Positions 30,201 to 33,200 of a stretch of 64,000 nt of DNA are shown in pieces; the first letter of the stretch is position 1, and every line of letters begins with the position of its first letter. Made by a program: the position numbers and the translations under genes. Below the pieces are notes generated by a model. The model saw only the letters and a program-made list of their open reading frames with translations, was not told where the DNA came from and made no database searches. The stretch covers positions 537,947-601,946 of the forward strand of contig CAUYUJ010022426.1 in NCBI GenBank assembly GCA_963575745.1. Direction: 5' to 3'. Source of the stretch: Prorocentrum cordatum. Lineage: Eukaryota > Sar > Dinophyceae > Prorocentrales > Prorocentraceae.

Positions 30201-33200
30201 AAAAAGTAGTCAAAACAAAAAAAAATGAAAATAGCCAGAAGGAGTCAAAAAATCGGCGCCTGACTACTTTTTCACTATTTTTGAATGGCCCTCCTGCAAA
30301 GGGACATGCCCGACTTCAACATTGCCGAGACCGGTGCACGTGCACGGCCGGCGCCCTCCGAGGGCTGGCCCGGAGGGACATGTCCCTGCTCGCCCGGCAG
30401 TGCCCGAAGGCGAGCAGCGCCCGGATGCCCTCCGAGAAATTCTCCACGAAGACGTCATTGTAGTGGTCCTTGACAGGGCTCGATTCGATGCCTTCCATTC
30501 GCTTCCGTTCGACTTCGACGGCTGCCGATGCGATTCGATTGGACTTCGGACTCCGATCTGGATTCCAATTTCTTAATGGAGGCCTACAGGCCTGTCGCTT
30601 TCCGCCGATTCGTCTTTTCCCGACTTCGGTTTCGATTTCCGCCGATTCGATTCATTTCGATCGCTAATCCGACTTATCAATTCGATTGTGGGCTCGCCTG
30701 CCTTGATCACCCGCTCCACGATGGCGAACGAGCACTGGGCGATGGCCTCGAAGGCGAAGCCAGGACGAGGATCCAATCGGGGGAAGAAAGCAATCAGGAA
30801 TCCCCGAGATCTGGCGGCTCTGAAGGATGTATCGAACGTCGCGGCCCTCTCAGAGCGTTCCAGAATGCTCGGGGAGCATTCCGGAATGCTGTGGAACTAG
30901 TTTATCCTCGTCCTAGCCCAGTCCGAGCCTCGTTACTGTGCTCCTGGGCTGCTGCGTGCAGAATGTGGAACACGGTCTTCCAGCCGGACTTGATATTCTT
31001 AAGCCGGCCCTGTACCATGTTCGAGATGATGGACACGATGAGATCCTTGACCTCCTGTGTGACTCCTGGCGTGGAGACCATCACCACCTCGAAAGGCCTC
31101 AGGAAATCCGCCTGGAAATTGTAGTTGCTCAGCTCGTCCTTTTCCAGAAACTTCATCGCCAACTGCCGAAGGGAATCGATCGCGAACATGCAGACACGGA
31201 TGTTGGGGTTGCATGCGACCTCGATGAAGTGGTTGCTCAGCACCTGCCATATGCGCGACCATACCAATCGAATGCGGTTCATGTTGTAGTCCGCCACCTC
31301 CACCAACTTCTGCAGTGAGAAGATGCGCGGCTGGTCGGGGAGAGCCAACTCCTCCTTGGAGACGCGCACGAGCTGGGTGACAAAGTGAACGACGGCAGTG
31401 GAGTCCAGCTTCGTGGACTTATTGAAGAGCAGCTCGATCTGAGCAGCGTCTATCTGGGACACGATCGACTCGGAGTTCACCATCTCTATCTGGCGATCGT
31501 CCTGGCCTAGCGACACCAGCGCCGAGACCCCTAGGCCATGAGTCCGCCTTTTCACGATCTGCCCGCCCTGGGTGCTAACGCCCGCAGAACGCTGCGCCAG
31601 GGCAGCCTCCTCCTCGAAGAATTGGAAGTCCTGCCTCGTTTTGTGGCCTATCAGCTGCATGCGCTCTAGCTGCGAGATGCAGACCAGGACGTAGTGCCAC
31701 GACGGTCCCAGGTTGTTGCCCTCTGAGAGCCCTATGGCGAGCAGCGCCTTGATGCACTCGATGTTCTTCTGCTTCATCTCCTTGACGGTGGTCAGATACG
31801 TGAACTTCGCCAGGGACGAGACGAGGGCGTCGCGCTCAGTGTCCATGTCGAAGCGTGCTGCTATCCTGATGCAGTGCTTGAAGCCTTCGATGCACAGGTC
31901 AACGGCGCTCGGGGAGTCCTGCATCTCCAGCAGGACCGCCAGCGTGGCGAGGTACGGCCAGCACGCGACCTCGAAGAGAGGCCTGACGTGCTCCACGCAC
32001 AGGACGTGCTTGCTCGCCTTCGACTTGCCAGCCTCCTCCTCCTCCTCCTCCACCTCCTCCTCCTCCTCCGCCACCGCATCCTCCTCCTCCTCCTCCTCCT
32101 CCTCCTTCGCCTTCGACTTGCCCGTCTTCAGCTTCATCATCTCCTCGCACTTCCCCACGATGCTCTCCGTCTCCCGCACGAAGAGCTCGTACTTCTGCGC
32201 CGCTCCCTGGGCGGCCTGCGACTCCATGGCGAGCTGCGCCTCCCGGTCCTCCTGCAGCGAGATCGGGTTCTTCTCCACGGCCTCGTAGAGCTTCTCGAGG
32301 TGCTCTCGGGGGAGGTCCTGGTTGTCGTTGATCCCCCGGTTGTTCCGCACGAACTCGTCCTTGGTCATCTTGTTTTTGATGCCCGGGTTGTGCAGGTCCG
32401 TCTGAAGCATGATCAGCGAGAACGAGAGCACGAAAGCGCAGTCTGCATTCGTGTACTTGTTCGGGTTGTCGCTGCAGTACTTCTCCGCAAACTTCTCCAT
32501 CATCCTGTGAAGGGCAACGTTCGGGGGAGATCGGATCAGGAACATCGACCTGGGATCGGCGACACATCGACGATCCCAGGTCGATGTGTCGCCGATCCCA
32601 GGGTAGACCGGTGATAGGCTTTCGGCAGCTAAACCACACGGTCCTGGGGGGTGAACTATGGGGCCCTATAAGCGATCGATGGGCGATTGGGGGTAACGTC
32701 GTTCATTTCTAATCGTGCGCATTTCTATTGTGCTCGTTTCTAATTGTTCCTGGCCCCCTAGTGGCCAGAAAGAGGCCCAGGACAGAACACTCAGAAATGA
32801 AAGGATCTGGGCCCCCAAAAAAATCAAAGACCTTTCGAAGAAATAGAAGCGAACAACCTGTAGAGGAATCCCCCCCCCGAGCTCTTCTCCCGAATAGCGC
32901 TTCGCCCAGAAAGGTTCTAACCCCCGGGGAGGGGGGGAAGCCCCAGACCGCTGGGTGTCTGGCAGCCGTCTCGCCTGAGACCTCTTCACACTTGATCCAA
33001 GAGAGGGGGCCACATGCGAACCCTACCCCTGCCCCCCACGATTCTTGAGAGGGAGGGAGGGGAGCGAAGTGAACCCCACCCTCCCCCTCAAAAATCGTGG
33101 GGGGTAGGGGTAGGGTTTGCATGTGGCCCCCTACAAGAGTCGTGCTCACCGAGACGAAGCTAGGACGAGGATAACATCGGGTGAGTGCAAATCGAGGATC

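Follow-up and report, generated by a model that had tools for sequence, protein, structure and literature searches.

The window analysed here, a 64,000-nucleotide stretch of a Prorocentrum cordatum contig, carries on its minus strand a gene for a BIG-type ARF-GEF, one intron of which (I3) is very probably an introner: a non-autonomous, MITE-like element with terminal inverted repeats (TIRs), inserted long ago at GAGGC in an exon, with a target duplication that supplies both splice sites. The element belongs to a repeat family, called T1 below, which has defined ends and a 5-bp duplication, and a coding frame runs on across the element at I3 and at several other loci. The initial annotation of this DNA had proposed that the intron is taken up by a complete inverted-repeat element and that the target duplication of this element holds both splice sites; this reading stands, and family members do likewise at other coding loci.

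The ARF-GEF gene and the element in intron I3

The best-scoring relative of the ARF-GEF is protein P0001, listed as Alexandrium catenella, followed by unnamed environmental proteins. The window has a GC content of 54-67% (4-kb steps) within a genome assembly of 4.13 Gb in 21,875 contigs, a mean G+C of 59.7% being given for P. cordatum (PMC10666404), a species with which both the base composition and the structure of the gene are in keeping. Five exons of the gene (Table 1) were joined into 614 open codons across four introns, and these are 56-80% identical to eight aligned relatives. From protein homology, we infer that I3 is removed from the transcript as a GC-AG intron. The resulting join, HSNE|AIAQ, is in frame and gapless toward the close relative P0017 (HSNEAMTQC there, HSNEAIAQC here), and it is covered both by the Pfam HDS match (PF09324, E 4.6e-28) and by the PDB alignment with 8ucq_B (E 3.2e-41), the latter with a one-residue gap just ahead of the junction. 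The in-frame match to BIG proteins described previously was thus confirmed, as were the coordinates, the length of 182 bp, the CGAGGC at both ends, the GC donor and the AG acceptor. In the range tried near I3, splicing at 66 GN-AG pairs would be in frame and free of stops; 65 would alter the protein length, and only the pair 30747-30928 would not. An intronless paralogue was not found in the genome, where the exon query 30933-31400 matched only itself, a DNA-level comparison that leaves room for diverged paralogues.

The element might instead stay unspliced, the locus being a broken allele or a pseudogene. Reading through I3 indeed leads to a stop at the ninth codon past the exon, but the long open join, its similarity to eight relatives and the same arrangement at several other coding loci (see below) make this very improbable.

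Table 1. Positions of the ARF-GEF exons, introns, repeat elements and duplications in the window.
Feature	Position	Strand	Remarks
ARF-GEF exon	34255-34152	-	in 614-codon join
ARF-GEF exon	33795-33745	-	in 614-codon join
Intron I2	32505-33744	-	long intron
T1 relative in I2	33150-33324	-	74% over 165 bp (33152-33314); not itself an intron
Exon upstream of I3	30929-32504	-	end of Sec7 domain to HDS; in 614-codon join
Intron I3 (focal)	30747-30928	-	182 bp, GC-AG, phase 0
Upstream GAGGC copy	30927-30931	-	5-bp duplication; GAG = last codon of exon, GC = I3 donor
Focal TIR element	30750-30926	-	177 bp, TCGGAC...CTTCGCCTTC; from copy match ends, with duplication analysis for the terminal base
Downstream GAGGC copy	30745-30749	-	GAG = end of I3 (AG acceptor), GC = start of next exon
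Exon between I3 and I4	30702-30746	-	45 bp, AIAQCSFAIVERVIK; in 614-codon join
Upstream TCAAGG copy	30701-30706	-	6-bp repeat
Intron I4	30469-30701	-	separated from I3 by the 45-bp exon
Second element	30474-30700	-	227 bp, CAGGCGAG...GAGCCCTG, fills I4; from match ends of scored copies
Downstream TCAAGG copy	30468-30473	-	6-bp repeat
ARF-GEF exon	30468-30403	-	in 614-codon join
Intron I6	20280-22183	-	long intron; duplication CCATC, TIR TCGGAG.AGGGC
T1 relative in I6	20885-21035	-	73% over 109 bp (20888-20994); not itself an intron
Intron I7	19780-20113	-	duplication CATCC, TIR CC.GA.GAAGAA

The length of I3 is fully accounted for by the element and one copy of the duplication (177 + 5 = 182 bp). 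The duplication had previously been described as 6 bp long; it is in fact the 5-bp GAGGC, and the sixth matching base, C, belongs to the element. The base that lies between the match edge at 30751 and the duplication, A in 57 of 88 rows of the family alignment and C in 10, is taken as the terminal base of the element. The perfect 11-bp inverted core reported earlier was found again in the focal copy, and the two relatives announced within 12.5 kb are real, both lying inside the long introns I2 and I6 (Table 1). When one mismatch is allowed, the window holds 7 occurrences of the core AGGACGAGGAT, where 1.14 were expected and none of 100 shuffles reached 7; two of the seven matches are AGGAGGAGGAT within GA-rich sequence.

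From a mechanistic point of view, a T1 element would have entered the ARF-GEF exon at GAGGC, duplicating five bases, with a transposase presumably supplied in trans. With the target read as GAG|GC, the donor AG|GC would come from the upstream copy and the acceptor GAG| from the downstream one, so that the spliceosome may remove the element and exactly one duplication and bring back the original codons, E|A. Just ahead of the acceptor, the element contributes the pyrimidine-rich end CTTCGYCTT. Exonic copies would then persist only where the duplication chances to hold AG|GN.

The T1 family and its copies at other coding loci

A genome search with positions 30700-30980 as query gave 1859 first-look candidates, the best 40 of which were scored, 39 of them besides the focal copy. 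Among these 39, 20 matches start at query position 52 (30751), 15 end at position 227 (30926) and 9 do both; in 21, both match ends lie within 2 bases of the ends of the focal element. The 28-base 5' end of T1, with at most one mismatch, was present 1157 times in the 4.13-Gb genome, while the reversed-pattern control gave 0. A consensus of 175 columns, built from 86 of the 88 rows with the two window relatives left out, ends in TCGGACGGGGCTAGGACGAGGATAAATC / TAAGACGAAGCCAGGACGAGGATAAA; its two ends, compared without gaps, agree at 21 of 28 positions, and it folds into a long hairpin.

The 39 copies had not been selected by their flanks. At five positions, identity between their two flanks exceeds that of cross-pairs by 0.27-0.47; at the sixth the excess is 0.09. 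The 5-bp register of the duplication has a z of 10.5, a value as high being obtained in none of 2000 permutations. T1 copies elsewhere thus carry the TIR and duplication structure, and the family possesses both the terminal inverted repeats and the fixed-length duplication of a TIR (MITE-like) transposon. Flush 5-bp duplications also occur outside genes, 38 of these 39 copies not scoring as coding. The duplicated sequences are varied in this set, and T1 insertion therefore does not need AGG; because it is not limited to AGG targets, the splice sites would arise by chance. A T1 5' pattern with a 3' end some 378-525 bp away was seen at three loci (L091, L061 and L080), possibly longer relatives or nested insertions. 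The T1 TIR, searched as one 22-base pattern, was absent from viral_contigs, a set from which near relatives of the source genome may be left out.

Further copies were obtained with the pattern AGGY followed by the T1 5' end (at most 2 mismatches), which had 534 matches against 0 for the control. From 100 matches listed, 60 pattern-selected copies were fetched (34 with AGGY, 8 with AGGA and 18 with other flanks); 51 have a recognisable 3' end, 5 of which did not enter the consensus because of their length, and 9 have none within the 100-450 bases searched. Coding potential was evaluated by a codon score for which two frames of the window served as training set, the exon upstream of I3 and a 1124-aa frame without Pfam support; since that exon was part of the training, the focal score (0.07) does not count as independent. 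The cut-off of 0.05 was chosen after the values had been seen; among 237 non-coding positions the 99th percentile lies at -0.05, and four loci scoring between -0.05 and 0.05 (L055, L057, L059 and L070) were not counted as coding.

With this cut-off, the joined flanks form a continuous coding frame in phase 0 at 7 of the 90 other T1 copies with both ends, and the remaining 83 do not score. Six of the seven (L068, L071, L077, L088, L090 and L093) come from the 51 pattern-selected copies, and L010 from the 39 that were not flank-selected. In each of the seven the duplication is perfect and reads NAGG[ACT], and the element lies forward, an orientation that in six cases follows from the forward-donor pattern by which they were chosen. 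Of the 90, 22 have a perfect 5-bp duplication, and 7 of the 12 with NAGG[ACT] are coding versus 0 of the 10 others (Fisher 0.0046). Homology passes through the junction at L077, a class I fructose-bisphosphate aldolase (NF003784, 1.4e-64, below the NCBI curated cut-off; 2iqt_A, 4.2e-45, with a two-residue gap just ahead of the junction), and a PF17645 match (3.8e-11) covers it at L010, which is arylmalonate-decarboxylase-like. L071 is weakly acyl-CoA oxidase-like, with a match that also crosses the junction (PF00441, 0.0012, below the cut-off), L088 has a PAS/LOV-like region upstream of its junction and L093 a sub-threshold beta-propeller match; the domain search matched no named family at L068 and L090. 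Similar sequences thus appear to constitute introns of different genes and at different sites, which is what characterizes introners.

These loci also bear on the origin of I3. It may be supposed that the intron is old and of unrelated origin, and that the element was inserted into it later. Such nesting does occur in T1, as in the long introns I2 and I6, and the large majority of T1 copies do not score as coding; however, no intron sequence is left in I3 outside the element and its duplication, and the same flush arrangement recurs at the seven other loci that score as coding, so that a later, nested insertion is highly unlikely. A chance match of the direct repeat to the AG|G splice consensus, which could draw on cross-pairs of the gene's introns matching over about 3 to 4 bases and on one unrelated pair that reaches 7, is scarcely credible when the copies not selected by flank, nearly all outside coding sequence, have flush 5-bp duplications, and when the own-end repeats of the six GN-AG introns of the gene (6, 6, 6, 6, 4 and 7 bases) sum to 35 where permuted pairs of donors and acceptors average 22.5, only 2 of 720 pairings, the true one included, being as high.

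Age, orientation and target preference

Clearly, the focal copy does not belong to the youngest members of its family. It diverges by 17.7% from the T1 consensus, whereas 78 sampled copies have a median of 10.1% and a 95th percentile of 16.3% in a sample that leans to copies near the query or the consensus end and is thereby biased to young ones; the seven coding copies lie at 6.7-13.1%. The view that the introner was caught shortly after insertion is not supported, and a recent insertion was rejected on this divergence, which is above the 95th percentile. The focal duplication is intact because most of its bases are codons or splice sites, and hence under constraint.

Selection on orientation for splicing was also considered. 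At the exact 21-base 5' end of T1, the flanks read AGGH in 40 cases and AGGG in 18 (58 in total), DCCTN in 18 and CCCTN in 10. Splice-capable forward flanks (AGGH, 40) do outnumber reverse-capable ones (DCCTN, 18; binomial 0.005), but the control flanks are skewed alike (AGGG 18 versus CCCTN 10; Fisher 0.81 versus the splice-capable flanks), and this explanation was dropped. The excess of AGG over CCT seems to reflect a preference in targets and not selection for splicing, no genome-wide trace of which was found in the flank counts at this exact 5' end. The mirror pattern at the other end of T1 gave 467 matches with at most 2 mismatches.

Neighbouring introns and known introners

Intron I4 is filled by an element of a second family, with ends CAGG...CCTG. 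A search with positions 30440-30730 as query gave 2120 candidates; of the best 40 scored, the 39 besides the focal one are 81-84% identical, 21 starting at query position 35 (30474), 15 ending at 261 (30700) and 9 doing both. The TCAAGG repeat is flush with this element, its 6-bp length being known from the focal site alone, and the I4 donor takes its G from the duplication and its C from the element. Two repeats of different families, both introner-like, thus stand side by side, flanking a 15-codon exon.

Repeats of 4-7 bp end all eight resolvable introns of the gene. At I6 and I7, removal of the element and one repeat gives PILRG / DDIHHQLQ, as in P0017 (PILRG / YDIHDQLQ in P0001), and GN-AG ends are absent at the repeat boundaries of both; GA-AG pairs that keep the frame, spotted by eye, would lengthen the protein by 21-22 residues. 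It is conceivable, though rather doubtful, that TIRs and duplication define what is spliced in the source organism, and not GN-AG dinucleotides. If so, dinucleotide-free splicing, described in the parasite Amoebophrya, would extend to an apparently free-living core dinoflagellate, with ordinary GC-AG introners present in the same gene.

Other features were noted in the same region. I1 (33796-34151, GA-AG) has a GGAGCT repeat and, by eye, roughly inverted ends CGACGAGCAGCAAGCC / CGAGGAGCAACAACC, and holds another repeat. I9 (17231-17437) gave partial repeat matches only, among the best 40 scored out of 134. A further inverted-repeat element, GTCGGGC.TGTCCCTCTACAGG ... CCTGTAGG.GGACATGCCCGAC, was seen by eye about 4 times (about 30160-30330, 29490-29665, 27010-27145 and 33880-34030), as was a long degenerate array of AGCTAAAGCTA-type units within the ARF-GEF gene region (about 28280-29040, minus strand). 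The 1124-aa open frame (40027-43398, minus strand), which has no convincing Pfam match, lies upstream of the located ARF-GEF exons.

T1 adds to the introners, a kind already described in dinoflagellates. The DNA-transposon introners that Huff et al. 2016 treated in Micromonas and Aureococcus are reportedly non-autonomous, have TIRs and obtain a splice site from their duplication; they belong to a different lineage, and T1 is likened to them by description, not by sequence. Introners with TIRs and a duplication, with splice sites drawn wholly or partly from that duplication and with GC or GA donors, have been described (Gozashti et al. 2022, PMC9860276). The introner of Symbiodinium microadriaticum resembles T1 in its TIRs and in a short duplication that gives a splice site; GC and GA donors are reported there, and the mRNA is restored precisely in most families (PMC9860276). 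By contrast, the Symbiodinium element duplicates 4 bp and brings along a 3' splice site of its own, whereas T1 duplicates 5 bp and has both sites in the duplication, as in the Florenciella case of the same report (PMC9860276).

The introners of Amoebophrya (Farhat et al. 2021, PMC7789003) likewise have inner inverted repeats and direct repeats over the exon/intron boundary. Their direct repeats are 3-5 bp long, their ends are for the most part not GT-AG, and they lack inverted repeats specific to a family (PMC7789003). I3, with its defined TIR family and GC-AG ends, differs from them; I6 and I7 are closer to the Amoebophrya kind. In P. cordatum itself, introns with inverted repeats at both ends are enriched (Dougan et al. 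2023, PMC10666404), a count which, in that text, derives from a pattern search (8-20 nt inverted and 3-5 nt direct repeats) and gives no family, ends, duplication length or age. Introners of five dinoflagellates were treated by Roy et al. 2023, as summarised in PMC11453091 and listed among the references of PMC10666404. No published family matching T1 was found in the literature searched, supplements being outside its scope.

With I3, a known route of intron gain has a further clear example. T1 is cleanly bounded, has more than 1000 copies of its end and is mostly non-coding among the copies sampled, which makes insertion preference separable from survival as an intron. Together, T1, the neighbour in I4 and the end repeats agree with the idea that insertion of mobile elements was the main source of introns in such genomes.
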